Below are positions 4,322-23,685 of a stretch of 64,000 nt of DNA, one piece after another (the stretch's first letter is position 1; the number at the start of each line of letters is the position of its first letter). This stretch comes from an uncultured Senegalimassilia sp. GTDB taxonomy: Bacteria > Actinomycetota > Coriobacteriia > Coriobacteriales > Eggerthellaceae. The translations under genes and the position numbers were made by a program. The stretch covers positions 18,412 to 82,411 of the forward strand of contig CAKTWI010000008.1 of NCBI GenBank assembly GCA_934630815.1, written 5' to 3'. A model generated the notes under the pieces. It did no database searches and was not told the origin of the DNA. It saw only the letters and a program-made list of their open reading frames with translations.

Positions 4322-5455
4322 CTACGAGCAGGCGATATCACGCAACGCGCTCAAGGCGTCGTCGCAATCCCGCTGCGAGTTCATGGCGCCGAAGCTGAAG
4401 CGCACAACGCCCTGCTGCTGCGTACCGAGCGCCGCGTGCATGAGCGGGGCGCAGTGCGCGCCCGGGCGGACGCACACGCCCCATCCCTGCGCCAGCCGAT
4501 CGGCAATCTCGCTGGAATCGGCATCGCCTACGTTGACGGCGACGATGCCGCAGCGCCGCCCGGAGCCGCCGCCCAGGACCTTCACGCCGTCAATATCGCT
4601 GACTCCTTCCAGGAAACGCGTCACCAACCCTTCGATATACGCTTGCACATCCGCCACCCCGCGCTCCGCAAGCCAGCAGCACCCCGCCGCAAGTCCCGCC
4701 AAGCCGTGTGCGTTGGCCGTTCCGGCCTCGAGCGCCTCGGGCATGAAACGCGGATGTCGCTCGTCGAAGCTGTGCACGCCCGAACCGCCTTCCACAAGCG
4801 GGGTGATATCAAGGCCCGGGCGCACGCACAGCCCGCCGGTGCCCTGCGGCCCGTACAGGCTTTTATGTCCGGTGAAGCACACGACGTCGGCGCCGATGCC
4901 CGATGCCGAGAACGCCCATGCGCCGGCCGTCTGCGCCGCGTCGAGGACGAACAGCGCGCCGGCCTTATGGGCGGAGGCGGCCATGCGCTCGATGTCGTAC
5001 ACATCGCCGGTCACGTTGGAGGCATGCGTGACCACGACCAGACTGGCGTCGACAAGCGCTCGCTCGTAGGATTCCCAGTCAAGCGAACCATCGGGCAGGA
5101 TGGCAGCGACGCGCACCTGACAGCCGCGCTCATCGCGCGCGCGGTTGAGCGGGCGAAGCACGGAGTTGTGCGAAGCGGCCGTGGTAACCGCGATGCCGCC
5201 CGCAGGCAACAGCCCTTCGATGGCGATGTTGAGAGCCATGGTAGCGTTCAAGGCGAACGAAACGCTGCCGACGCCCCAAGCGTCGAGCAGGTCGGAAACC
5301 GCCTGTCGCGCTTCGAACACCGCCATGCTCGCATCGAGCGCCGCCTGGTGCGAACCGCGCCCAGGCCCGCCGAACGACGTCATAGCGCCGCACACCGCAT
5401 CGATGACGGCCTGGGGCTTGTGCATGGTGGTAGCCGCATTGTCCAGATAGATCAT
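4322..5455 (-). CDS. Cysteine desulfurase-like aminotransferase (class V), selenium-associated type
   Basis: PLP enzyme of the NifS/CsdA fold. In this family a cysteine (or selenocysteine) gives up S or Se to an enzyme-bound persulfide/perselenide. Its 377 residues begin MIYLDNAATT. The PLP lysine lies in FTGHKSLYGPQGTGGL near residue 200 and the active-site cysteine in VRPGAHCAPLMH near 337. A short class-V subfamily of this kind is known to co-occur with selD, yedF and DUF3343 genes, and all three are within 5 kb. I infer selenium or sulfur mobilisation for SelD or for the YedF/DUF3343 carriers. The start has only a weak ribosome site. Confidence 0.85.
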   Translation of the reverse strand: MIYLDNAATTMHKPQAVIDAVCGAMTSFGGPGRGSHQAALDASMAVFEARQAVSDLLDAWGVGSVSFALNATMALNIAIEGLLPAGGIAVTTAASHNSVLRPLNRARDERGCQVRVAAILPDGSLDWESYERALVDASLVVVTHASNVTGDVYDIERMAASAHKAGALFVLDAAQTAGAWAFSASGIGADVVCFTGHKSLYGPQGTGGLCVRPGLDITPLVEGGSGVHSFDERHPRFMPEALEAGTANAHGLAGLAAGCCWLAERGVADVQAYIEGLVTRFLEGVSDIDGVKVLGGGSGRRCGIVAVNVGDADSSEIADRLAQGWGVCVRPGAHCAPLMHAALGTQQQGVVRFSFGAMNSQRDCDDALSALRDIACS

Positions 5456-5631
5456 GGTTTGTGCCCTATCGATCGAAAGAGATAACGGTTACCGGATTTC
5501 ACCGGCATCCTGAGAGCGTCCCGCAAATAGACGGAGACGACGACTGCGCCCGCGAAACGCGCAAGTCAAACCGCAAGGCGAAAGCCGCGCAGGCGATCCG
5601 CGAACAGAAACGTCGACATCGCCGCGAAACG

Positions 5632-6399
5632 CTACGCTTCGCCATCCATCTCGACGGCGATGATAGCCGCTCCCAACGCCCCTGCGAAACGTGCGTCGGG
5701 GCAAGAACCCACCGGCGCGCCCAACTCAGCCTCCAAGCGTGCGCGAACGTAATCGTTTTCGCACAAGCCGCCCGTAAGGTGATACCGCGTTGCGGGAACC
5801 TGCCCCACCAGCGTGCATACGCGCGCCACGACCGAGTCGATGACGCCACGTGCGATGTTCTCACGCGGCTCGCCCTTTCCCACCAAGGAGATGACCTCGG
5901 ATTCCGCGAACACCGTGCACATGTTGGAGATAACGGTAGGCTGTCCTGCCGCCGCCAAGCGGGCAAGCTCGGCTTGGCTTACGCCCAATCGGTCGGCCAT
6001 GATCTCCAAGAAGCGCCCGGTTCCCGCGGAGCATTTGTCGTTCATGACGAACTTGCGCACCTTGCCGCCGGCAAGGCCGATGGCCTTGGTGTCCTGCCCG
6101 CCGATATCGATGACGGTGCCGTCTTCGCCGAAGAGCGCCGCCGCGCCGCGAGCGTGGCAGGTGATCTCGGTGACCACCTTGTTGGCATACGGCACGGCCA
6201 CGCGGCCGTAGCCCGTGGCGACCACCGGCATCTCGCCCACTTCGAAGCCCTCGCAGGAAAGCGCACGGCGCACCTGCTCGGCAACTTCCACACTGGAGAA
6301 CCCGGTAGGGATGACCAGCTTGAAGGCGATAGCGCCGGAAGGGTCCGCGACGACGGCCTTCGTAGCCGTCGATCCGATATCGATGCCGATACCCGCCAT
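5632..6399 (-). CDS. Acyl-CoA dehydratase activase / double-cubane protein reductase (ASKHA ATPase)
   Basis: ATP-hydrolysing iron-sulfur activator that drives a single low-potential electron into a HgdB/DCCP-type partner. The 255 residues show the ASKHA phosphate loop GIDIGSTATKAVV at the N-terminus and VIDIGGQDTKAIGL near residue 98. Two cysteines, in MNDKCSAGTGRF and SNMCTVFAESEVISL, bind one [4Fe-4S] cluster across the dimer. The ATG (MAGIGID) has AAGGAG 8 nt upstream. The obvious partner is the DCCP/HgdB-like protein at 8659-9837. It is divergent from selD, with about 145 bp between them. Confidence 0.93.
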   Translation of the reverse strand: MAGIGIDIGSTATKAVVADPSGAIAFKLVIPTGFSSVEVAEQVRRALSCEGFEVGEMPVVATGYGRVAVPYANKVVTEITCHARGAAALFGEDGTVIDIGGQDTKAIGLAGGKVRKFVMNDKCSAGTGRFLEIMADRLGVSQAELARLAAAGQPTVISNMCTVFAESEVISLVGKGEPRENIARGVIDSVVARVCTLVGQVPATRYHLTGGLCENDYVRARLEAELGAPVGSCPDARFAGALGAAIIAVEMDGEA

Positions 6400-6544
6400 G
6401 TACGTAGCTCCTTGTCTTGGGTTTCGGGCCCATGAGGCTCCGCCGTTGTCGCGCTGAGGCTTTGATGCAAAACCATGCATACCATCTTGCGACTATACTA
6501 TACTGGCAATGATACCAACCCGACCCCATAAGAAAGGACCGCGC

Positions 6545-7636
6545 ATGAGCACGGACGACCCTGCGAACGGCGCAATGTGCGACGGTGATCGCATACGCCT
6601 GACCACGCTCACCGACAAAGGCGGTTGAGCGGCGAAATGGGGTCCGGGAGACCTCTCCGAGATTTTACGCGACATCGCGCCGGCCGTGCCCGACCCGAAC
6701 CTGCTGCTAGGCTTCGACACCGCAGACGACGCCGCGGTTTGGCAGGTGGACAAGGACAACGCCGCTGTGCTGACGCTCGATTTCTTCACCCCTGTAGTGG
6801 ACGATCCGTACGAGTTCGGCGCCGTTGCCGCGGCCAACGCCCTGTCCGACGTGTTCGCCATGGGCGGAAGGCCCGTCACCGCGCTCAACATCCTGGCCTT
6901 CCCCAGCTGCATGGGCACCGAAGTGGTGGGAGACGTGCTGCGTGGCGGCGCGGACAAGGTGCGCGAAGCCGGGGCGTTCGTGGTGGGCGGCCACTCCATC
7001 GAGGACGACGAGCCCAAGTACGGCCTTTCCGTATTTGGCCTGGTGCACCCCGAGCGCATGGTGCGAAACGGCGGGGCGCAGCCAGGAGATGCGCTGTACT
7101 ACACGAAAACGCTCGGCACGGGCATCATGAACGCCGCGCTGCGGGCGAAGCTGCGCACCGACGAGGACTTGCGCCCGGTCATCGACGGCATGATGGAGCT
7201 CAACCGCGCGGCAGCCGAGGCCATGCTGGAATGCGATGTGCACGCATGCACCGACGTCACCGGCTTCGGCCTTGCCGGGCATCTGCATGAGATGCTCGAA
7301 GCGTCGGGGTGCGCAGCGCGCCTGGACTGGGACGCTTTGCCGCTGTTCGACGGCGTGTACGAGCTTTCGTGCGATTATTGCCGCCCCGGCAAGACGTTCG
7401 GCATCATCGACTGGGCAAGCGCGTTCGTGGAACAAGGCGACATCGACGATTTCGAGTTCGACGACCGTATGGGCGTGCTATGCGACCCGCAAACCTCCGG
7501 CGGTCTGCTCGTGGCCATCCCGCCCGAGAATGCAAGCCTTTTCGAGGCGGAATGCGAGCAGCGGCAAGGGCGCAAACCCTCCCGAATCGGAACGTTTGAA
7601 GCCGGTCCGGCGGGTAAGATCTTCGTGGACTGGTAA
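6545..7636 (+). CDS. selD: Selenophosphate synthase containing selenocysteine (in-frame UGA)
   Basis: Makes selenophosphate from selenide and ATP. The frame opens at ATG 6545 (AAAGGA 6 nt upstream) and runs 27 codons to a TGA at 6626-6628, then continues in the same frame to TAA at 7634-7636. Reading TGA as Sec gives LTDKGG-Sec-AAKWGPGDL, which is the SelD catalytic motif (Sec/Cys followed by the catalytic Lys): Sec28 and Lys31. The full length of 363 residues is normal. The AIR-synthase-fold motifs GFDTADDAAVW, NALSDVFAMGG and VVGGHSIED follow. A caller that reads TGA as stop would start at 6686 and lose the active site. Selenocysteine genes are present next door. Confidence 0.95.
6626..6655 (+). 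promoter_or_regulatory. Sec UGA codon with candidate bacterial SECIS hairpin
   Basis: The UGA is at 6626-6628. Just downstream, GGGGTC (6639-6644), loop CGGGA (6645-6649) and GACCTC (6650-6655) form a 6-bp stem-loop whose G-containing loop starts 17 nt after the UGA. That is the spacing expected for a bacterial SECIS read by SelB. The stem was found by eye; folding and comparison with relatives would test it. Confidence 0.6.
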
Positions 7637-7707
7637 ACGGGAAGGCTCACGCCCCGCAGCGCCCCAGCCAAACCGACGCCGCACGTGACCGCAACAAGCC
7701 ATCCGCA

Positions 7708-7749
7708 AAACGTAAGGGGAGCCGTCAAACGACGGCTCCCCTTACGTTT
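7708..7749. terminator. Bidirectional terminator between selD and the DUF3343 operon
   Basis: A perfect 19-bp stem (7708-7726 with 7731-7749) with loop AAAC. It lies 71 nt after the selD stop and touches the stop codon of the opposing DUF3343 gene. A-rich and T-rich ends let it serve both converging transcripts. Confidence 0.85.
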
Positions 7750-8005
7750 AATACAAATCCACTTCGGTGATGGCTTCGAAGGCAAGCCCTCGCTGCCCAA
7801 GCGCTTGCTCGAGCGCTTCGCGCTGCTCGACCGGAACGCTCCAAGCAAGGCCGCACCCCGCCGAGATCTCGGAAGGCACCGGGATGACGCGCCCCGGCAG
7901 GACGCCTCCTGCCGCAGCAGCCTGCACGGCCATCGCATCGGCCGTGCTATGGAAGGTCACCACCGCATGCGGCGTTTTGCATCGCTGCATCGCACATACC
8001 GCCAA
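7748..8005 (-). CDS. DUF3343 protein, putative Se/S carrier
   Basis: A small 85-residue protein with the DUF3343 hallmarks: an N-terminal TFHSTADAMAVQAAA region, VIPVPSEISAGCGLAWSVP with the conserved cysteine near residue 51, and a C-terminal acidic tail. This family is described as a selenium/sulfur carrier-like protein found beside selD and yedF. As written it starts at TTG 8005, 2 nt after the yedF stop. An ATG five codons in (7990) is an alternative; neither has a strong ribosome site, so it is probably translated by coupling to yedF. Confidence 0.85.
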   Translation of the reverse strand: MAVCAMQRCKTPHAVVTFHSTADAMAVQAAAAGGVLPGRVIPVPSEISAGCGLAWSVPVEQREALEQALGQRGLAFEAITEVDLY

Positions 8006-8007
8006 GG

Positions 8008-8607
8008 CTAAGGACGCACGACGACGCCGGCCTCAAGCTGCTTCTGGACGATGACGTACATGTTCGTCACCTCGCCCACCGCAAGCTTGTCGGCGATGCC
8101 GAAATGGTTGAGGCAGGTTCCGCAGCTGAAGATTTCCACGCCTGCTTCGGCCAGCTTTTTCAGATCGTCGAGCACGGGGCTGCCCTCGACGGTCAGATGC
8201 ACGCCGCCGTTGTAGGCCAGGATAGCCGCCGGCAGCTCGTCTTGCTGGGTGAGCGCGAACACGAACGCCTTCATGAGCGTGGCGCCCAGCTCATCGTCGT
8301 CTGCGCCCATGAACTCGCTGGACAGCACGACCACCTTGCTGCCCGCCGGCACGAGCGGCTGGCATTCCTCGCATACCTCGGCGGCAGCTTGAGCGCCCTT
8401 CGTGAAGGTCACGGCGAACTCGGCTTCGCCGCGCTCCTCGGAGACAGTTTCGACCTTGAGCGACTTACCAAGGTTTTCCAGGTTGTGCATGGCCGTCTTG
8501 TTGTCCACCACCACCTCAAGGACGCCCTCGCCCATGCCGGCAAGGGCCTTCTTCGCGTTCACCACGGGCAACGGGCACGCCTGCCCCTTGCAATCGAGCT
8601 TCTCCAT
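8008..8607 (-). CDS. yedF: Selenium-associated sulfurtransferase-like protein YedF
   Basis: A two-part protein of 199 residues. Residues 1-70 are a TusA/SirA-like domain (LDCKGQACPLPVVNAKKAL, with the CPxP cysteine). The C-terminal half is a DsrE-like domain (VVVLSSEFMGADDDELG, then FSCGTCLNHFGI). This long YedF form is known to co-occur with SelD and is thought to carry selenium or sulfur. The start MEKLDC is set by AAAGGAG 6 nt upstream. It sits between the DCCP-like gene and DUF3343 in one apparent operon. Confidence 0.93.
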   Translation of the reverse strand: MEKLDCKGQACPLPVVNAKKALAGMGEGVLEVVVDNKTAMHNLENLGKSLKVETVSEERGEAEFAVTFTKGAQAAAEVCEECQPLVPAGSKVVVLSSEFMGADDDELGATLMKAFVFALTQQDELPAAILAYNGGVHLTVEGSPVLDDLKKLAEAGVEIFSCGTCLNHFGIADKLAVGEVTNMYVIVQKQLEAGVVVRP

Positions 8608-8658
8608 GAGCATCTCCTTTCCGCGGCGTTTTGCGCCGCACTTGCGCAAATCTTCCCG

Positions 8659-9837
8659 CTACAGCATCTCGATGAATGCGCCCAGGCGGGTTTCCACCTG
8701 GCCGGCATCGTTGGTGGAATAATCGGTTTCAAGCTTCATATAGGGCACGCCAGCCTGCTCGCAGGCGCGCTGCACGCGCACCGCCTCGATGTTGAAGGTG
8801 TGGCATGCCTGCAGCACCACTTCAACCACGCCGTCCACCTTGTATTTCTCCACCATGTCCATCATATGCTCGATGCGGCCGTCGTTGGGCGACATGACCG
8901 AGCAATTGATCTGCAGGTATCGGTCGGAGATGGCGCGCAGGATGTCGGGCGCGTCCTCGTCGACGAGCATGCCCTGCGTGCGCTCGCCCGAGCAATCGTC
9001 GATGCACACGATCACGCCGCCGGCGCGCTCGGCGGTCATGCCCACCTTCTGGATGACGCCGCCGGTGGGGCAGCCCGTGATCATGATGCGCTTTGCGCTG
9101 GCGGAAACCGGACGCTCCCCGGCCTCGTAGGCGCTGCGGCGCTTTTCCGCCAGGTCCTCGAGGGTTTGCGCATAGGAATCAACATCGAAGCTGAACGTTG
9201 CGCGCAGCAAGGTGGCCATAAGCTCCACGCCGCTCATGGCGGGAGGCTCGTTTTGCTGCAGGTTGTACAGGCCCATCATGGCGCGACGGACGCGGTTGCG
9301 TTTGCGCACCGCCTCGCGCAGCGCCTCGTCGGTGATCTCCACATCGAAGCGCTGCTCGAGCTCCTGTTTGAGCAGCTTGCATTCCTCGTACCAGATGTCG
9401 CCGGCGTAGGCGCGGTTGCGAGCCTGAGGCAGCTGCATGACATGCACCGGCTTGATGTCGGCGAGCAGCTCGTACATCTTCTTCTTGCCGTCGCACGTGG
9501 TTTCGCCCAAAATCATGTCGCTGAAGTAGGTGAAAGGGCATTTGTCGGTGAGCGCGAAGCCATACGTGCCCTTGATGAGCGGGCACAGGTTTTTCGGCAG
9601 CACCGTCTCGGCATCGGGGATGGTCTCGTTGTTCATGCCGCACAGGCCCACCGCGCCCGCGCCCGCGGCGTCCACCAGCTCAAGCGGGCTGTAGGAGCAC
9701 AGGTAGCCGCACAGTTTGCCGCCTTCCTGCTTGTAGTTCATGGCGTTGACGAAGCTGGCGCGGCGCGCCTCGTCGAAGGTGCCGTAGATGCCGGGCAGGT
9801 CGATGGGCACCGCCGGCTCGTTTGCGGGGTCGAACAT
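8659..9837 (-). CDS. Double-cubane cluster / 2-hydroxyacyl-CoA dehydratase-like protein (HgdB family)
   Basis: A 392-residue protein of the HgdB/BcrC family. Single-subunit members hold an [8Fe-9S] double cubane and perform ATP-dependent low-potential reductions with an activase partner. Cysteines fit cluster binding: [70 protein letters not shown] and QACHTFN. The [11 protein letters not shown] has AGAGG 5 nt upstream. It leads the operon DCCP-yedF-DUF3343. The activase is at 5632-6399. No CoA-transferase or second dehydratase subunit is present, so I favour a DCCP-type role over hydroxyacyl-CoA dehydration. The true substrate is unknown. Confidence 0.88.
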
Positions 9838-10072: not shown

Positions 10073-10915
10073 CTACTTCGCGTTGTTCCTAGCGTACACG
10101 AACCAGTAGGCAAGGCCGATCAGGACGCCGCCGATGATGTTGCCCACCGTCGCGGCGGACAGGTTGTACAGGATGGCAGTCACGTCAAGCGCGCCGGCGT
10201 TGGCGACCGCAGCGCCAAACCCGGCGGACTTCATGAGCAGGCCCGTGGGCAGGAAGAACATGTTCGCCACGCAGTGCTCGAAGCCGGCTGCCACGAAGAA
10301 GCTGATGGGAAGCATGATGCCGAGGACCTTGTCCACCACGGTACGCGCGGAGAAGCCGATCCACACTGCCAGGCACACCATGACGTTGCACATGATGCCC
10401 TTGGCCATGAGCACGAGCCAATCAGGGGTGACCTTGCCGACGGCCACCGACACCATGGCGTCGCCAACGGCGCCGCCGTTCATAGCGCCGACGCCGCACC
10501 AATAGATGAGCGCCACCACGATAAGCGAGCCGGCAAGGTTGCCAAGCCACACGATGACCCAGTTGCGCACCAGACCGCCAAGCTTGATCTTCTTTGAAGC
10601 CAGGCCCGTGACCATGAGCATGTTGCCGGTGAACAGCTCGGCGCCGCAGCACAGCACGAGCACCAGGCCCAAGCTGAAGCAGATGCCGCCGACCATGCGC
10701 TGAGCGGCGAACGGCACGGCCGAATCGCCCAAGAATACCAGGAAATACGTTGCGCCGAACGCGATGAACGCACCGGCGAGCATTGCCAGCACGAAGCACT
10801 TCGCGCCCGCCATGCCGGCCTTGCCCACGGCCAGCGTCTCGGCCTTCGCCTCGATCTCGGCGGGGCCGAGCGCATCAGGTCGTAGGGCTTTCACATCCGA
10901 TTGATCCATTGCCAT
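10073..10915 (-). CDS. focA: Formate/nitrite transporter family channel (FocA-like)
   Basis: Pentameric FNT-family membrane channel, 280 residues with six membrane spans. Family motifs are clear: [50 protein letters not shown] and [15 protein letters not shown] with the pore histidine. Sequence style is closest to formate channels. Because it lies between the DCCP/YedF genes and divergent selA, transport of formate (for a Sec-containing formate dehydrogenase elsewhere) or of hydrosulfide/hydroselenide are both possible. FNT proteins include HS- channels. The start MAMDQSD follows GGGAGAGG by 5 nt. Confidence 0.93.
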
Positions 10916-11092
10916 GGAAACCTCTCCCTGTTCGCGATCTTTCGTCTTTAGGAAAAACACGGTAATTCTTACATGACAACGCACATGAAACGACCTCATT
11001 GGCGCGAACGGCGTGAATTGACCCGTCTGCGATAGCATTTGCCGGGCATTTGGCGCACTCGCCGCCTTGCCCCGAGCCGTTGCGAGCTTGCC

Positions 11093-11101
11093 TGCTATAT
11101 T
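11093..11101 (+). promoter_or_regulatory. Candidate extended -10 promoter of selAB
   Basis: TGC-TATATT (extended -10 form) lies 68 nt upstream of the selA start in the divergent gap between the FNT channel and selA. No convincing -35 is visible, which is tolerated by extended -10 promoters. Assigned by eye only. Confidence 0.35.
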
Positions 11102-11168
11102 GAGGTACGGAAAACCTGCGGCACCGCGTATAAACGGTGCCGCCGCACGCTATAAGGAAAGAGGATCC

Positions 11169-12632
11169 ATGCCCGAACCACGTACCGACCTTTTACGCGC
11201 ATTGCCCCAGGTCGAAGAGCTTATGCATGCCGCCCCTATGAAGGCGCTCGAGGCCATCGTCCCCCGCTCCATGCTCATCGACCGCGCCCGTGCAGCCGTG
11301 GATGCGCATCGCCAGCTCATCTTGGCGGGAAAGGCGGACAAGGTCGACGTCGAGGCTATCTTGACCGATGCCGTCAACAGCGCGCTGGCAACGCTGCGCC
11401 CGAGCCTCAGGCGCGTCATCAACGCAACCGGCGTGGTCATCCACACCAACCTCGGCCGCAGCGTGCTTGCCGAGCCCGCCGTGCAGGCGGTTGTGGAAGC
11501 GGCGCGCGGCTATTCCACGCTTGAATACAGCATCGAGAACATGGCGCGTGGAAGCCGTCACAACCATGTGGAGCATCTGATTTGCGCGCTTACCGGCGCC
11601 GAGGCGGCCATAGCCGTGAACAACAACGCGGCGGCCGTCATGATGGTGCTCGCCGAGTTCGCCGCAGGCCACGAGGCCATCGTCAGCCGAGGCGAGCTCG
11701 TCGAAATCGGCGGCAGCTTCCGCGTACCCGACATCATGGCCCAATCAAACGCGCGCATGGTGGAGGTTGGCGCCACGAACAAGACGCATGCCTTCGACTA
11801 CGAGCGCGCCATCACGCCCGACACCGCCATGCTGCTCAAGGTGCACCCTTCCAACTACCGCATGATCGGCTTCACCGAAAGCGTCTCGAAGATCGACCTA
11901 CGGCGCATCGCCGATGCGGAGAACGCCCGCCGCGCCGCCGCCGGCGAAGCCTGCCCCGAACTGCTGGTCTACGAGGACCAGGGCTCGGGCGCCTTCATGC
12001 ACCTCGACGTGTTCGGCGAATACGCCGAGCCCACGGTGTGCGAATCGCTTGCCGAGGGGTGCGACCTGGTCAGCTTCTCGGGCGATAAGCTGCTCGGCGG
12101 CCCCCAGGCCGGCATCGTGGTGGGCCGAAAGGAATACATCGACCGCCTGAAGAAGCATCCGCTCGCCCGCGCGCTGCGCCTGGACAAGATGACGCTCGCC
12201 GCCCTTGAGGCTACGCTGCGCCTGTATCTGGACCCCGAGGACGCGCGTCGCCGCATCCCCACCCTACGCATGCTCACCGAAGACGCCGAAACGGTGCGCG
12301 AACGCGCCGAGGCGCTGATGGCGGCCCTAGCCGAGCGCGTGACGCCCGGCCAAGCGCACCTGGAGATCGTGGAGGAAACGGGCCGCGCGGGTGGAGGATC
12401 GCTTCCCATGTGCGACATCCCCACGTTCTGCGTGCGCATGCGCTTCGAGGATGGCAACGCGCAAGGCTGCGAGGAGCACCTCCAGCGAAAGCGCGACGTG
12501 CCCGTGATCGGGCGCATCAAGCGCGAATGCGTGCTCTTCGATGCACGCACCATCACCGAAGAGGATATCCCCGAGATCGCCTGCGCCGTGGCCAGCTATT
12601 TCACGGCCATCGAAGGGCGAAAGGAGTCGTAG
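11169..12632 (+). CDS. selA: L-seryl-tRNA(Sec) selenium transferase
   Basis: PLP enzyme that converts seryl-tRNA(Sec) to selenocysteyl-tRNA(Sec) using selenophosphate. The 487 residues include [15 protein letters not shown] (near 90), [20 protein letters not shown] and the PLP lysine in [14 protein letters not shown] (near 310). The ATG has AGGAAAGAGG 4 nt upstream. selB follows after 6 nt, so the two form an operon. Confidence 0.97.
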
Positions 12633-12638
12633 CGCGCC

Positions 12639-14573
12639 ATGGAAACCGAATCGAAACGAGACCTGGTGCTCGGAACCGCTGGCCACATCGACCACGGTAA
12701 ATCCACCTTGGTCCAGGCGCTCACCGGCACCGACCCGGACAGGTTGAGCGAGGAAAAGCAGCGAGGCATCACCATCGAGCTCGGCTTCGCTCAGCTTAAG
12801 CTGCCCGACGGAAGCGCCATGGGCGTGGTCGACGTCCCGGGGCACGAGCGCTTCGTGCGCCAGATGATCGCGGGTTCCACCGGCATCGACGTGGCGCTGC
12901 TGTGCATCGCCGCCGATGACGGCATCATGCCGCAAACCGAGGAGCACCTGGCGGTGCTGCAGCTTCTGGCCGTGCCCACCTGCGTGGTGGCGCTGACGAA
13001 ATGCGATCTGGTGGACGAGGAATGGGTGCTGTTTATGGAAGACGAGGTGCGCTCGCGCCTGGCTTCTACGCCGTATGCCCAGGCCACCATCGTGCCTGTT
13101 TCCGCACGAACCGGACAGGGTCTGGACGAACTGCGGAAAGCCATACAGCTTGCGGCCCGCGCCACCGCCGGCCGCGCAGAGCAGGAGGCGATGCGCCTGC
13201 CCGTGGACCGCAGCTTCACCATCAAAGGCGCGGGGACCGTTGTCACGGGAACGCTATGGAGCGGCATCGCGCATGTCGGCGACGAGGTGGAGGTGCTGCC
13301 CTCGGGCCTGCGCACGCGCATCCGCGGCATCCAGGTGCACGGGCAGGCGGTGGAGCAGGCAGCGTCAGGGCACCGCACCGCGCTGAACCTGAACGCCGTG
13401 ACCACCGACGACGTGCGGCCGGGCAGCTTCATCTGCACGCCCGATGCCGTGACGCCCACCGACCACTTCGATGCGGACATCACCTATCTGGGCATCCCCA
13501 ACCAGGACAAGCCGCTTGAAACCGGCTGCCGCGTGCACGTTGCGCATGGCACCACGGAGTGCATCGGGCGCGTGCTGCTCATGGATGACGTGAAAAGCAT
13601 CTCCCGAGGTCAAACGGCTGCAGCGCAGATTCGTACCGAATGCGATTTACCGGTTGCATACGGTGACCGATTCGTCATCCGTTCATACTCCCCCGTCCAC
13701 GTGATCGGCGGCGGCGTGGTGCTGCGCGCCCACCCGAAACGCACCACCACGGTAAGCGAGGTGGACCGAACGCTGCTCGATGCGCTACGCGCGGGAGATG
13801 GTGCGAAGGCGACGCAAACCGCCTTCAATGCGGCCGAGTTCCCCGTGACGCCCGCCGAGATCGCCCACGCAACCGGGCTTCCCCTCACGCAAACCGCTGA
13901 TGAGCTTGAAGCGCTCGCCGAACGCGGCACTGCAGAGAAGCTGTCCGGGGCCGCGGGAGCGAGCATCCGGTTCGCAGCCAAACGCATGCTGCAGAAGCTT
14001 TCGGGGGCGATCGAGAACGCATTGCTGCGCTTCCATAGCGCAAACCCCGCGGCAACCGGCATATCGAAAGACGCGTTGCGCCAAGCCTGCATGCCCCGCT
14101 GCGCGCCCGACGCCTTCGACGCGGTGCTTGCGCGCGCATGCGCGGAAGGCAAAGCCGTGGCCGATGGCGGCATGATAAGCCACCCGCAAGCCGGTGCCGG
14201 CGCCCGCAAACTCGAGGAAGACAATGCCGAAAAGCTGGCCGAGCTGCTAGCTACGGCGGGCCCGAAACCGCCTACGGTTACCGACCTGCTCAAGCAGGCC
14301 GACCTGGCGTCAAAGCAAGGCTACAAAGCGCTCGGGCTGCTGGAGAGGCAAGGCCGTGCCGTCAAGGCCAGCGAGGAGTTCTACTTCGATGCCGACGCAC
14401 TTGCCTCGCTCGAGCAGGCGGTTCGAGACGCATTGGCGAACGGCCCCGCTTCCGCGGCCGACCTCAAAGACGCCATGGGCCTGAGCCGCAAACACGCCAT
14501 CCCCGTGCTCGAGCACTTCGACGATACGGGCATCACCCGCCGCGTCGGCGACGCTCGCGAGCTGGCAAGCTAA
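12639..14573 (+). CDS. selB: Selenocysteine-specific elongation factor
   Basis: EF-Tu-like GTPase that carries Sec-tRNA to the ribosome and binds the SECIS hairpin with C-terminal winged helices. The 644 residues show G1 GHIDHGKST, switch [14 protein letters not shown] and TKCD for guanine recognition. Domains II/III follow, then about 280 residues of winged-helix repeats ending [31 protein letters not shown]. Length agrees with bacterial SelB. It lies 6 nt after selA. Confidence 0.97.
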
Positions 14574-14812: not shown

Positions 14813-14909
14813 TGGCGGAGACGCGTGCGAATCGAACACACCCGAGACGTTCTGCGCGCCTCACAACGGCTTTGAAGGCCGCGGGGCCCACCAGGACCCA
14901 TCCATCTCC
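14813..14909 (-). tRNA. selC: Selenocysteine tRNA (anticodon UCA), CCA encoded
   Basis: A 97-nt gene. The acceptor stem GGAGATG pairs with CGTCTCC and is followed by GCCA. There is a 6-bp D stem GGGTCC/GGGCCC, anticodon stem CGGC/GCCG with loop CTTCAAA (anticodon TCA), a long variable arm GAGGCG/CGTCTC and a T arm GTGTG-TTCGATT-CGCAC. The 6-bp D stem, long extra arm and UCA anticodon are diagnostic of bacterial tRNA-Sec. The eighth acceptor pair would be G-G as I draw it. A -10 like TACAAT lies at 14927-14932. The gene converges on selAB. Confidence 0.95.
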
Positions 14910-18389: not shown

Positions 18390-18935
18390 CTAGGCCTGCA
18401 TACCCAGCTCCAGGGCGCGCAGGTTGCCTGCCAGCTTGTCCTTCTTACGCGCCGGGACCACGGCGGCCACAGCCGCGCGGATGGTTTCTTCACTGCAGAA
18501 ATGCGTTTCGGCGAACAGCTTGCCCACCAGGATGACGTTGGCCAAACCTTTCAGGCCCGCCTCCTCGGCGAGGGCCGTGGCGGGCACGGCGCACACCGTA
18601 GCCCCTGGGATATCGGGGATGCGCGGCACGAGCGTGCTGTCCACGATGACCAAGCCCCCAGGCTGCACGCTATGCTCGAACTTGTCGAGCGACGGCTGGT
18701 TCATGACCACGAGCACATCGGGGTTGAGCACGAGCGGGCTTCCGATAGGGTCGTCGGAAATGCACACGCTGCAGTTGGCGGTGCCGCCACGCATTTCGGG
18801 TCCGTAGCTGGGAAGCCAGGAAAGCTCGCGGTCCTCAAGCAGGCCGGCGTTGGCGATGATTTTGCCGGCGAACAGGATGCCCTGGCCGCCGAATCCGGCG
18901 AGGACGGCCTGCATGCAACGTTTCGGTTCGCTCAT
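18390..18935 (-). CDS. korC: 2-oxoacid:ferredoxin oxidoreductase, gamma subunit
   Basis: A 181-residue gamma subunit, with GFGGQGILFAGKIIANAGL at the N-terminus and SWLPSYGPEMRGGTANCSV near residue 40, the family signature. With alpha, beta and ferredoxin subunits it oxidises a 2-oxoacid with CoA to acyl-CoA, CO2 and reduced ferredoxin, or the reverse. Its ATG overlaps the beta stop by 4 nt (ATGA), so the two are coupled. Confidence 0.93.
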   Translation of the reverse strand: MSEPKRCMQAVLAGFGGQGILFAGKIIANAGLLEDRELSWLPSYGPEMRGGTANCSVCISDDPIGSPLVLNPDVLVVMNQPSLDKFEHSVQPGGLVIVDSTLVPRIPDIPGATVCAVPATALAEEAGLKGLANVILVGKLFAETHFCSEETIRAAVAAVVPARKKDKLAGNLRALELGMQA

Positions 18936-19795
18936 CGCGCACCCTCCTTGCCCTCGGCACGTTTCTCAGGATGGGCCACCGGGCAGTCGGCGCTGCGCGC
19001 AGCCGCGGCCTGTGCCGCATCGGCGAACCCGTCGGCCACCACATCGCGATACACGCCCAGCGGATAATATGGCAGCATGTTCTCACGCATCCACGCGAAG
19101 CTATCCTGCGGCGTAAGACCCCAGTTCGTGGGACACGTGGACACCACTTCCACGAGCGAATAGCCGATGCCGTCGATCTGGTTCTGGAACGCCTTCTTGA
19201 TGGCGCGCTTGGCCTGGCGGACATGCTTAGGCGTGTCCACGGTCACGCGTTCCAGATACGCCGGGCCGTCAAGGCTGCTCAGCAGCTCGCACACGCGAAC
19301 CGGGTAGCCGGCGGTGGAAACGTCGCGGCCATAGGGGCTGGTCTGCGTCACCTGGTTCGGCAAGCTGGTGGGCGCCATCTGCCCGCCGGTCATGCCGTAG
19401 ATGGCGTTGTTGATGAAGATAACGGTGATGTGCTCGCCGCGCGTAGCCGCATGCACGGTCTCGGCCATACCGATGGAGGCGAGGTCGCCATCGCCTTGAT
19501 AGGCGAACACCACGTTGTCCGGCAGCACGCGCTTGACGCCCGTGGCAACCGCCGGGGCGCGGCCATGCGCCGCCTCAATCATGTCGCAACCGAAGAAATC
19601 CGGCGCGGTGACGGCGCATCCCACGGGCGCGACGCCGACGGTGCGGCCTTCGATATCAAGCTCGTCGATGACCTCGGCGACCAAACGGTGCACGATGCCG
19701 TGCGGGCAACCCGGGCAGTAGTTCGTGACCACGGGCAGCAACGACTTCGGGCGCGAGAACACCACGCGGCCTTCGCCCTGTTTCTGCTCAGCCAT
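18932..19795 (-). CDS. korB: 2-oxoacid:ferredoxin oxidoreductase, beta subunit (TPP-binding)
   Basis: A 287-residue TPP subunit: NYCPGCPHGIVHRLV near residue 28 (cluster/TPP cysteines), FAYQGDGDLASIGMAETVHA (GDGD motif, near 95-115) and FINNAIYGMTGGQMAPTS. The start MAEQKQ comes 1 nt after the alpha stop, with AAGGGCGG upstream. Substrate class (2-oxoglutarate, branched-chain or aryl) is not readable from sequence. Confidence 0.93.
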   Translation of the reverse strand: MAEQKQGEGRVVFSRPKSLLPVVTNYCPGCPHGIVHRLVAEVIDELDIEGRTVGVAPVGCAVTAPDFFGCDMIEAAHGRAPAVATGVKRVLPDNVVFAYQGDGDLASIGMAETVHAATRGEHITVIFINNAIYGMTGGQMAPTSLPNQVTQTSPYGRDVSTAGYPVRVCELLSSLDGPAYLERVTVDTPKHVRQAKRAIKKAFQNQIDGIGYSLVEVVSTCPTNWGLTPQDSFAWMRENMLPYYPLGVYRDVVADGFADAAQAAAARSADCPVAHPEKRAEGKEGAR

Positions 19796-19796
19796 G

Positions 19797-20864
19797 TTAT
19801 TCACCGCCCTTCCCCGCAAGCTTGCGGATAGCACCCAGCACCTCATCGGGCGTGGGGATGATGCCGCCCGTGCGTCCGAAGAACTCCACGGGAACACGGC
19901 CGTTGACCGCCAGTCGCACATCATCGACCATCTGGCCCATGTTCATCTCAACCGACAAGAACGCCTTCGCAGTCTCCATGCAGCCCTCGATGGCGTCCAC
20001 AGGGAACGGCCAGAGCGTGATGGGGCGCAAAAGGCCTGCCTTGATGCCCTCGGCGCGGGCGCGCACGACCGCCGAATGCGCGATACGCGCGGTGGCGCCG
20101 AACGACACGAGCACGATCTCAGCGTCCTCGCACATGAACGTTTCGGCACGCTGCTCGCGTGCCTTCACCGTCTCATAGCGCTCGAAACGCTCGATATTCA
20201 GGCGCTCGAGCTCGTCTGCCGTCAGGTAAAGCGAGTCCACGATATTGTGCTTGCGCGTGCCCTTATGGCCGGTGGTGGCCCAAGGCTTCTCCGGCAGCTG
20301 CTCCACGCGCTCGGGAAGCACGACGGGCTCCATCATCTGGCCGAGCATGCCGTCGGAGAGGATCATGGCCGGCATGCGGTACTCGTCGGCCTTCTCGAAG
20401 GACAGATACGCCAGATCGGCCATCTCCTGGACGGTGGAAGGCGCGAACACGAGCACCTGGAAGTCGCCGTGGCCCATAGCGCGCGTGGCCTGCCAGTAGT
20501 CGGACTGGGAAGGCTGGATACCGCCGAGACCCGGGCCGCCACGCTGCACGTTGACGATAACGCCGGGAAGATCGGCGCCCGCCATATACGAAACGCCCTC
20601 GCCCTTAAGCGACACGCCCGGCGAAGACGACGACGTCATGACGCGAGCGCCCGCGGACGATGCGCCGTAAACCATGTTGATAGCTGCGATCTCGCTTTCC
20701 GCCTGCAGATACGTGCCGCCCTCCTTGGGCATGCGCTTGGCCATATAAGCGGCAACCTCGGTCTGCGGCGTGATGGGGTAGCCGAAGAAGAAGCGGCATC
20801 CGGCGCGGATGGCAGCCTCGGCCATAGCCTCGTTGCCCTTCATGAGCACCTTTTCCTGAGACAT
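19797..20864 (-). CDS. korA: 2-oxoacid:ferredoxin oxidoreductase, alpha subunit (VorB-like)
   Basis: A 355-residue alpha subunit: LMKGNEAMAEAAIRAGCRFF, GYPITPQTEVAAYMA (near 30) and MTSSSSPGVSLKGEGVSYMAG. It resembles VorB/KorA proteins that lack the N-terminal gamma fusion. Its start overlaps the ferredoxin stop by 1 nt (TGATG). It lies within the operon regulator-synthetase-ATPase-ferredoxin-alpha-beta-gamma. Confidence 0.93.
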   Translation of the reverse strand: MSQEKVLMKGNEAMAEAAIRAGCRFFFGYPITPQTEVAAYMAKRMPKEGGTYLQAESEIAAINMVYGASSAGARVMTSSSSPGVSLKGEGVSYMAGADLPGVIVNVQRGGPGLGGIQPSQSDYWQATRAMGHGDFQVLVFAPSTVQEMADLAYLSFEKADEYRMPAMILSDGMLGQMMEPVVLPERVEQLPEKPWATTGHKGTRKHNIVDSLYLTADELERLNIERFERYETVKAREQRAETFMCEDAEIVLVSFGATARIAHSAVVRARAEGIKAGLLRPITLWPFPVDAIEGCMETAKAFLSVEMNMGQMVDDVRLAVNGRVPVEFFGRTGGIIPTPDEVLGAIRKLAGKGGE

Positions 20865-21891: not shown

Positions 21892-23685
21892 TTACACCAA
21901 GCCCTCGGGCACCTTAGTCTTCGGCTTGCCCTCCTGGCTTTCGTCAGCCTCGCGGATGGCGGCTCGGCGGATCTTGCCGTTGACAGTCTTGGGTAGCGCG
22001 TCGACGAACTCCACGATGCGGGGATATTTGTACGGCGCCGTGCGCTGCTTGACCCATTGCTGCAGCTCGCGCACGAGCACCTCGGAACCCTCGAAACCGT
22101 CCGCCAGCACCACCGTGGCCTTGACCGCCTTGCCGCGCACGGGGTCGGGCACGCCGGTAACGGCGCATTCGCGCACGGCGTCATGCTCGAGCAGCACGCT
22201 TTCAATCTCGAAGGGGCCGATGCGATAGCCCGACGACTTGATGACGTCGTCGTTGCGGCCAACGTACCAGAGGTACCCGTCCTCGTCGACCCAGGCGGTA
22301 TCTCCGGTGTGGTACCAACCGTCGTACACGGCCGCTTCGGTTTTCTCGGGATTGCGGTAGTACTCCAACATGATGCCCGGGGCCTTCTCATGTACATCGA
22401 TGCAAATCTCGCCCGTCTCGCCAACGTCGCAGCGGCTCCCGTCGCCGCGCTGCACCTCGATGGTGAACGCCGGCGAAGGATGGCCCATGGAGCCGGGCTT
22501 GGGCACCGCATGCGTAAGGTTGGCCACGGTGAGCGGAGTCTCCGTCTGACCGAAGCCCTCGAAGATAGTCAGCCCCGTGTGTTCCTTCCAGAAGTCGAAC
22601 AGGTCGGGGTTGAGCGCCTCACCGGCGGTAGTACAGTACGTAAGCGTGCTCAAATCATGGGCATCCACGTCGGCCTGCATCATCATGCGGTACATGGTGG
22701 GCGGGCAGCACAGCGTGGTGACCCCGTAGCGAGGAATCAAATCCAAGATCTCGTCGGCATGGAAACGGTCGAAGTCGTACGTGAGCACGCAGGCTTCCAT
22801 GAGCCACTGGCCATAATACTTGCCCCACACGGCTTTGCCCCAGCCGGTGTCGGCGATGGTCAGATGCAGCCCGTCAGGCTTGACGTTGTGCCAGTGCTTC
22901 GCCGTGACCAGGTGCGCCAATGCGTAGTAGGAATCATGCAGCACCATCTTGGGGTTGCCGGAGGTGCCGGAGGAGAAATACATGAGCATGGGGTCGCCGA
23001 CATGGGTTTCCACGCGGGAGAATTCCTCGCAGGCATTGCGCACGCCGGTGTTGAAATCATGCCAGCCCTCACGCTGCGCGGGCACGGCGCACACGCCCTC
23101 GAGGCCGGAGAGCACAGCTCCCACCGGGCCGTCAGCGGCAAGCCAATTGCCATCCGCGTCCTTCTCGGTCAGGCCCCCGCCGGCGCCATTGACCAAAAAC
23201 AGGTTCTCAACCGAAGGACAGCGATCCACGACGTTGTCCACCACTTGTGCGATGGTGCCGATGGAGGTGCAGATGACAGCCTTGATGGAAGCGCCGTTCA
23301 GGCGATACTCCAAGTCGTGCTCCTTGAGCATGAACGTTGCCGGAACCATGACGGCGCCGAGTTTGGCGAGCGCGGTTGCCACGAACCAGAACTGGTAATG
23401 GCGGCGCAGGATCACCATGACCATGTCGCCCTTACCCACGCCGTGCGCAGCAAGGTAGTTCGCCGTCTTGTCAGACCAGCGTTTCATGTCGGCGAACGTG
23501 AACAGATGCTCCTCGCCTTCAGGGTTGCACCACATCATGGCGCGGCGATCGGGGTCGTTGTCCGCGATGTCGTCCACCACGTCATAGCCGAAGTTGAAGG
23601 TATCGAGGCACTTCACCTTGAAATCGGTGAGCACGCCCTGCTCGTCGTAGGTTTCCTCGCAGTAACGCAGATTGATGTTTCTCAT
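21892..23685 (-). CDS. AMP-forming acyl-CoA synthetase (medium-chain/aryl type)
   Basis: A 597-residue ANL-superfamily ligase that makes an acyl-adenylate, then the CoA thioester. The phosphate loop YFSSGTSGNPKMVLH is near residue 236, the EGFGQTETPLT motif near 385, WYHTGDTAWVDEDGYLWYVGR near 460 and the C-terminal lysine in PKTVNGKIRRA near 570. With the oxidoreductase it could activate a carboxylic acid and carboxylate it to a 2-oxoacid (for amino-acid synthesis from branched or aryl acids), or work in the oxidative direction. Six nt separate it from the ATPase. Confidence 0.9.
   Translation of the reverse strand: MRNINLRYCEETYDEQGVLTDFKVKCLDTFNFGYDVVDDIADNDPDRRAMMWCNPEGEEHLFTFADMKRWSDKTANYLAAHGVGKGDMVMVILRRHYQFWFVATALAKLGAVMVPATFMLKEHDLEYRLNGASIKAVICTSIGTIAQVVDNVVDRCPSVENLFLVNGAGGGLTEKDADGNWLAADGPVGAVLSGLEGVCAVPAQREGWHDFNTGVRNACEEFSRVETHVGDPMLMYFSSGTSGNPKMVLHDSYYALAHLVTAKHWHNVKPDGLHLTIADTGWGKAVWGKYYGQWLMEACVLTYDFDRFHADEILDLIPRYGVTTLCCPPTMYRMMMQADVDAHDLSTLTYCTTAGEALNPDLFDFWKEHTGLTIFEGFGQTETPLTVANLTHAVPKPGSMGHPSPAFTIEVQRGDGSRCDVGETGEICIDVHEKAPGIMLEYYRNPEKTEAAVYDGWYHTGDTAWVDEDGYLWYVGRNDDVIKSSGYRIGPFEIESVLLEHDAVRECAVTGVPDPVRGKAVKATVVLADGFEGSEVLVRELQQWVKQRTAPYKYPRIVEFVDALPKTVNGKIRRAAIREADESQEGKPKTKVPEGLV

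Follow-up and report, generated by a model that had tools for sequence, protein, structure and literature searches.

A double-cubane-cluster-containing anaerobic reductase (DCCP; 8659..9837, minus strand) and an adenosine triphosphate (ATP)-dependent activase of the BadF/HgdC family (5632..6399, minus strand), its likely electron donor, are encoded in a stretch of 64,000 nucleotides from an uncultured Senegalimassilia sp. (the window), among genes for the selenophosphate synthetase SelD, the putative carriers YedF and DUF3343, and a class V aminotransferase-type desulfurase. The DCCP–activase pair is linked to selenium metabolism with high probability, as seen in the co-occurrence of DCCP with SelD across genomes and in conserved gene neighbourhoods. 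The whole explanation preferred here, namely that bacterial selenium utilisation includes the pair as a dedicated component, working upstream of SelD by reducing selenium to selenide, is given slightly less than an even chance; the particular reaction, reduction of zero-valent or carrier-bound selenium to selenide by DCCP, is held with a little less confidence again. The earlier, sequence-only reading had claimed all six genes for 4322..9837 and had assigned the pair to selenium metabolism instead of ordinary dehydration. All six were found there by profile scans, and the assignment is now well supported by the neighbourhoods and the co-occurrence.

Co-occurrence was evaluated with p values not corrected for phylogeny, that is, with the kinship of the genomes ignored. 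In Clostridia (166 genomes drawn from the class of genome G146), DCCP exceeded its profile cut-off in 21 genomes and SelD in 43; SelD was present in 21/21 genomes with DCCP versus 22/145 without it (p 5e-15). One further clostridial genome with SelD (G318) gave a DCCP match below the cut-off (325 bits). In Coriobacteriia (109 genomes), DCCP was over the cut-off in 45 genomes, SelD in 88, and both in 43 (Fisher p 0.001), which corresponds to SelD in 43/45 genomes with DCCP versus 45/64 without it; the SelD call of G044 in this set is a partial match. Full-length YedF, defined by us as a match from position 1 to position 185 or beyond, was found in 34/109 Coriobacteriia, all of them with SelD. 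DCCP was present in 22 of these, at a distance of at most 10 kb in 20 and at most 3 kb in 15. SelD was also found in 47 of the 50 genomes queried from among those behind the 80 DCCP loci described next.

These loci are the best 80 of 580 confirmed loci, obtained by scanning species genomes with an alignment of seven DCCPs (A1, the first row of which is the solved DCCP), and their neighbours were typed with home-made profiles. Within 5 kb of DCCP, the activase was present in 53 loci, DUF3343 in 24, YedF/TusA/DsrE-like proteins in 16, the desulfurase in 10, and SelD in 8; any selenium/sulfur (Se/S) gene was present in 41/80 loci, and in 24/36 with full 5-kb flanks. DUF3343 followed DCCP directly downstream on the same strand in 21/80 loci, and its density was 4.3 per 100 kb at 0–5 kb from DCCP but 0.5 per 100 kb at 5–10 kb. 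The most complete arrangement quoted here, at L089, reads DCCP-DCCP-activase-SelD-YedF-DUF3343-desulfurase without interruption on one strand. In the clostridial DCCP genomes, DUF3343 lay within 1 kb of DCCP in 15/21 (13 of these at 13–75 bp), for which the chance expectation is about 2e-36 if 0.2% per genome is assumed; SelD lay 283 and 438 bp from DCCP in G219 and G305, respectively. In the phylum of genome G148, SelD was located within 10 kb of DCCP in at least 10 of 64 genomes, three times at approximately 390 bp (SelD positions were available for 58/64). Adjacency limited to this one strain, which was to have spoken against the sequence-only reading, is excluded by these neighbourhoods.

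Other neighbours of the 80 loci were recorded as well. A LysR regulator was the commonest unassigned one (11/80 loci, with 9 of the 11 copies on the other strand); the LysR proteins of L023 and L088 belong to the selenium-metabolism family NF040786 (280.3 and 325.2 bits, cut-off 250), L023 being the one member of the 11-locus set that was profile-tested. The YedE-type neighbour at L019 scored 474.7 bits with TIGR04112 (cut-off 200), a putative selenium transporter. A rhodanese-like protein near DCCP (L074:11469-12578, from a cluster found in 6 loci) weakly resembles the selenite/tellurite protein ExtH (50.2 bits, cut-off 200).

It is improbable that the pair acts on sulfur instead, whether by stripping sulfur from carriers, by editing selenium versus sulfur for specific delivery, or in general sulfur-carrier chemistry. 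Such a role would suit the YedF/TusA/DsrE-like neighbours counted above, as L006, L009, L010 and L013 carry them without any other selenium gene; it would also suit the few DCCP genomes that lack SelD, and a related protein is a desulfidase (PMC11971306). DUF3343, moreover, occurs in 80/123 SelD-less Clostridia as well as in 41/43 with SelD, and alone is not selenium-specific. DCCP speaks against the sulfur role, being over its cut-off in 0/123 SelD-less Clostridia, and for the same reason it is a better selenium marker than DUF3343.

The same triad is present in Escherichia coli K-12, as judged from sequence matches: yjiM encodes a DCCP (47% identical to that of the window), yjiL an activase (44%), and the overlapping ytiA an 85-residue DUF3343 protein (PF11823, 48.9 bits, cut-off 25). 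The order in E. coli is DCCP-activase-DUF3343, and no sel gene is annotated in the 16 kb surrounding the three genes, whereas in the window the machinery for selenocysteine (Sec) adjoins. The yjiM-yjiL-ytiA stretch was matched over at least 80% in 5323/5426 E. coli genomes, a figure that describes coverage and not intactness. In a set of 14 named control genomes, the matches of DCCP, of DUF3343 and of SelD (at 1e-30) were in each case confined to E. coli and M. jannaschii; at the looser default, SelD matched all 14 through related enzymes and was over the cut-off in 2. SelA was found in E. coli alone, and the full-length YedF model was over its cut-off in 0/14. In a table of a study of the ygfI regulator (PMC9068703), yjiM and yjiL have negative values, as do the hyc genes and ynfE; these values would fit anaerobic growth with formate. 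The literature searched contained no paper with both ytiA and selenium, and among the matches listed for yjiM or yjiL none concerned selenium by its title or the start of its abstract.

The proteins themselves were compared with characterised relatives. The window DCCP, a YjiM-like protein of the short type, matched NF040772 with 492.6 bits (cut-off 350) and the solved double-cubane protein with 279.9 bits. The activase (start MAGIGIDIGS) matched TIGR00241 with 220.1 bits (cut-off 125.4) and also solved activators, where the DCCP reductase chain 7yyl_E ranked fourth of five with 149.3 bits. That the pair performs ordinary 2-hydroxyacyl-CoA dehydration, or lies where it does by chance, is considered very unlikely indeed. 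The family resemblance is real, and the profiles of the dehydratase subunit HadC (81.1 bits, cut-off 700) and of BzdN match the window DCCP weakly. Against this stand the score for NF040772, far above its cut-off, the conservation of the selenium neighbourhood across phyla, the co-occurrence with SelD, and the count of subunits: six-frame searches of the 64 kb with home-made profiles (E 0.001) gave one DCCP-type gene and one activase, although a very distant second subunit, or one outside the window, could be missed in this way. The sequence-only reading had noted that a second dehydratase subunit and a CoA-transferase are missing, and both statements hold, as Pfam scans of 20 window proteins and a reading by eye of the lists of open reading frames (ORFs) showed no CoA-transferase.

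The cysteines point in the same direction. Eight are invariant across the seven DCCPs of A1 (window positions 47, 66, 85, 100, 115, 282, 312 and 345). Cysteines of BzdN, a protein with an [8Fe-9S] cluster (PMC11971306), stand opposite C47, C85, C282, C312 and C345 in the alignment, and C115 is one column off; we infer that these six shared cysteines are the cluster ligands of DCCP. In the HadC alignment, no cysteine is found at C47 and C282. With the single DCCP-type gene in the window, the DCCP-type profile and these cysteines, an ordinary dehydratase was rejected as a candidate.

A tree of 92 DCCP sequences separates a long type (approximately 425 aa), which includes the Carboxydothermus protein, from a short type (approximately 385 aa). 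On a long branch, the window DCCP groups (support 100/95) with the second copies of Clostridia and with YjiM of E. coli, and DUF3343 neighbours are found for both types. The solved DCCP and its reductase (6eno, 7yyl), the source of which we take to be Carboxydothermus hydrogenoformans, share family and activase partner with the window pair; the Carboxydothermus DCCP, however, is of the long type (A), its nearest relatives in this tree lack a DUF3343 neighbour, and that of the window is of the short type (B). Long and short DCCPs lie within a few kb of each other at L021, L027, L036, L060, L062, L064, L065, L066 and L089, which could mean a heterodimer or two different substrates; two long DCCPs stand in tandem at L024.

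The position of the pair relative to Sec synthesis was deduced from genomes that lack SelA, which is absent from 3/21 clostridial DCCP genomes (G219, G261 and G305). In G219 and G305, the operon order is YqeC-YqeB-YedF-SelD-DCCP-activase-MocA-like (the MocA-like matches being under the family cut-off), and in G305 an XdhA-like protein is encoded further along. The family names of YqeC and YqeB assign them to the selenium cofactor of molybdenum hydroxylases and not to Sec. A Sec-specific role as the whole story was therefore rejected. Since DCCP occurs in YqeC-YqeB-YedF-SelD operons without SelA, its step would precede SelD and supply Sec as well as the selenium cofactor, and a step common to both has to lie at or before selenophosphate. 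The sequence-only reading had offered three options (reduction of a carrier adduct, supply of selenide for SelD, or activation of a selenium cofactor); the SelA-less genomes argue for a step upstream of SelD and bear on the place of this step rather than on its chemistry. SelD-dependent molybdenum hydroxylase operons (YqeB, YqeC) are thus joined to the pair at L084 and L085, where YqeC-YqeB-YedF-SelD stands with DCCP-activase; the window differs in having the Sec machinery, with no YqeB or YqeC among its scanned proteins.

The client enzymes found near such loci bear on another explanation, to which we assign a low probability: the pair may provide low-potential electrons for the maturation or activation of selenoenzymes or cofactors (formate dehydrogenase, selenium-dependent molybdenum hydroxylase, corrinoid enzymes) and not for selenide formation. 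An XdhA-like protein after SelD-DCCP-activase at L085, a formate-dehydrogenase-like gene (identified by reading) beside SelD-DCCP-activase at L088, and the focA-like gene adjoining DCCP in the window would be expected from it. These clients, however, vary from locus to locus, while SelD, YedF and DUF3343 recur, and the E. coli triad stands alone.

For selenide formation, the electron flow, the substrate and the role of the carriers are proposed from the observed gene content, neighbourhoods and co-occurrence. The activase would hydrolyse ATP and transfer low-potential electrons into the [8Fe-9S] cluster of DCCP. Delivery by the desulfurase, or scavenging, would place a perselenide or selenosulfide on DUF3343 or YedF. 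DCCP would then reduce zero-valent or carrier-bound selenium to selenide, which SelD would convert into the selenophosphate used for Sec, for selenouridine and for the selenium cofactor. For the Se(0)/HSe- couple at pH 7, a potential of about -0.72 V was computed for 1 M and of near -0.55 V for 1 μM, which NADH, glutathione and ordinary thiols do not reach. DCCP is proposed as the selenium reducer because this couple is out of reach for thiols and NADH and because its partners are putative Se/S carriers and SelD, an enzyme that requires selenide. In the most detailed version, which is possible but doubtful, DCCP and the activase would form a nitrogenase-like, ATP-driven selenium reductase that overcomes this very low potential, with the chalcogen held during turnover at the bridging site of the double cubane and DUF3343 as the docking carrier; anaerobic selenium assimilation would thereby receive the low-potential step so far missing from it, in E. 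coli through YjiM-YjiL-YtiA. Docking of DUF3343 on DCCP is suggested by the tight clostridial pairing of the two genes and by the invariant CG motif of DUF3343. DCCP has been reported to reduce acetylene, hydrazine and azide, the physiological meaning of which is described as unclear, and the related desulfidase contains a [4Fe-5S] cluster (PMC11971306), a precedent for chalcogen chemistry in the family.

Selenide might also be set free by reductive cleavage of the C–Se bonds of organoselenium compounds (methylselenol, selenomethionine, selenocystine) by DCCP, although this is thought unlikely. DCCP and its reductase are placed by a preprint in corrinoid methyltransferase clusters tied to methyl-selenium (PMC10418091), and a desulfurase of the window type lies within 5 kb of DCCP in the 10 loci mentioned above. 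The recurring partners are, by contrast, Se/S carriers and SelD; no methyltransferase was recognised by eye in the 13 unassigned neighbour clusters that each occur in at least 3 of the 80 loci, and none is annotated near the E. coli triad.

Several observations weigh against reduction of selenium upstream of SelD. SelD was missing from 2/45 Coriobacteriia with DCCP (G098 and G108; 86% complete) and from 3/50 of the genomes behind DCCP loci, and in Clostridia G195, which lacks SelD, gives a DCCP-like match of 269.9 bits, short of the cut-off of 350. Within the phylum of G148, 158/168 genomes overall and 61/64 with DCCP had SelD, so that no enrichment was seen (p 0.74), and G419, G423 and G424 carry DCCP without SelD; because SelD is near universal in this phylum, the comparison is without power and was rejected as a third co-occurrence test. 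No Se/S gene was present within 5 kb of DCCP in 39/80 loci, partly on account of short contigs, or in 12/36 with full flanks. Half of the SelD genomes lack DCCP (22/43 in Clostridia, 45/88 in Coriobacteriia), and selenium can therefore be used without it. DCCP is broken in G001, the nearest genome compared, with approximately 200 central residues missing, and YedF and SelD are kept. The two pieces of this DCCP lie in different frames (G001:C1:151965-152461; L001, L002). Finally, thiols and thioredoxin can reduce selenite and perselenides without ATP. What the data fix is the pathway, not the reaction.

The SelD gene (6545..7636, plus strand; 363 residues) matched TIGR00476 with 338.6 bits without its N-terminus (cut-off 125). 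The mechanical ORF begins at 6686, after an in-frame TGA at 6626-6628, which costs 47 residues relative to the true start at 6545; when the TGA is read as Sec, the frame is open and U28 falls within the active-site motif GGUAAKWG. Because this UGA stands at the catalytic position, the window SelD is itself predicted to be a selenoprotein. In our own count for the Coriobacteriia, a single internal TGA was present in 68 of the 88 SelD genes over the cut-off. A hairpin resembling a selenocysteine insertion sequence (GGGGUC-CGGGA-GACCUC) can be drawn at 6639-6655; the predicted fold differs from it and is no better than that of shuffled sequences. TGA read-through over 91 loci gave UGA-containing SelD in 7/16 and no internal UGA in 39 DUF3343 domains, 30 YedF-like proteins and 102 DCCP matches, by which Sec in the carriers or in DCCP was ruled out. 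Three activase matches and one desulfurase match had UGA within the last three residues only, which was taken as the normal stop.

DUF3343 (7748..7990, minus strand; PF11823, 66.9 bits, cut-off 25) belongs to a family with the putative Pfam name Se_S_carrier. P39, C46 and G47, the latter two forming its CG motif, were invariant in 27 sequences; the structure model (predicted local distance difference test score 83.8) gave unspecific fold matches. A cysteine tail (RDRYC or similar) stands right before the stop in 7/30 DUF3343 proteins (L064, L057, L083, L068, L074, L077 and L025) and is perhaps a second carrier cysteine. YedF (8008..8613, minus strand, in an ORF that extends to 8649; TIGR03527, 205.1 bits, cut-off 110) combines a TusA-like and a DsrE-like domain (PF01206, PF02635) with CPLP and CGTC motifs and is a putative carrier as well. 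The desulfurase (4322..5455, minus strand; PF00266, 235.9 bits) is EF2568-like and SclA-related. It remained just under the cut-off of TIGR01977 (338.1 bits, cut-off 377) and far under that for SclA (NF040779, 270.1 bits, cut-off 525), and it was therefore not called a selenocysteine lyase.

The locus is larger than had been described. A FocA-like formate/nitrite transporter (10073..11038, minus strand; PF01226, 223.3 bits; TIGR04060, 219.7 bits, cut-off 290.1), SelA (11067..12632, plus strand; TIGR00474, 557.8 bits), SelB (12639..14573, plus strand; TIGR00475, 356.3 bits) and tRNA-Sec (14813..14909, minus strand; ARAGORN; RF01852, 68.9 bits) adjoin 4322..9837, which makes the whole a selenium island. 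DCCP, YedF and DUF3343 follow one another on the same strand, less than approximately 50 nt apart (start codons chosen by us). DCCP stands at the head of yedF–DUF3343, as had been proposed, but the focA-like gene on the same strand ends 235 bp upstream of DCCP. The FocA-like transporter is the neighbour of DCCP on that side; formate dehydrogenase is among the common selenoproteins. A perfect 19-bp hairpin with an AAAC loop (7707..7748) parts selD from the DCCP-yedF-DUF3343 genes where their ends converge and was read from the sequence as a probable two-way terminator. It is absent from the list of the terminator scan, and the promoter and terminator scans of the window gave about the same numbers of matches as shuffled sequences. 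Elsewhere in the window, a 2-oxoacid:ferredoxin oxidoreductase-type pair and an AMP-binding acyl-CoA ligase-type gene (18932-20864 and 21892-23685) were noted as a possible source of low-potential electrons.

The connection between selenium and DCCP has been remarked on before, provisionally; the sequence-only reading was unaware of this and of the E. coli triad. In a 2023 preprint (PMC10418091), DCCP is provisionally linked to selenium metabolism and marked putative: in type I mlp gene clusters, DCCP and its reductase are given as putative selenium-metabolism genes. These clusters centre on corrinoid methyltransferases, and the available part of the preprint contains no test of DCCP–SelD co-occurrence. 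Table 1 of Lin et al. 2015 (PMC5322559) collates STRING partners for Slackia heliotrinireducens, where an activase and 2-hydroxyglutaryl-CoA dehydratase subunits appear beside YedF, DUF3343, SelA and SelD. There the partners are tabulated only; in the portion of the text available, the word "dehydratase" occurs twice, both times in the table, and no role is proposed. Among the matches listed from the literature searched, no paper states the DCCP–SelD co-occurrence or the E. coli triad, although fuller statements may stand in Haft and Gwadz 2023 or in the first paper on DCCP. The biological function of DCCPs is stated to be unknown in a 2025 paper, as far as its accessible part goes (PMC11971306).

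If the explanation is true, an orphan class of nitrogenase-like enzymes would gain a job, anaerobic selenium assimilation would gain an ATP cost, and E. coli K-12 would become a simple genetic test system for the role of DCCP. How selenide is produced or maintained for SelD without harm to the cell is an old gap. This gap in selenide supply and the gap in DCCP function may be one and the same.

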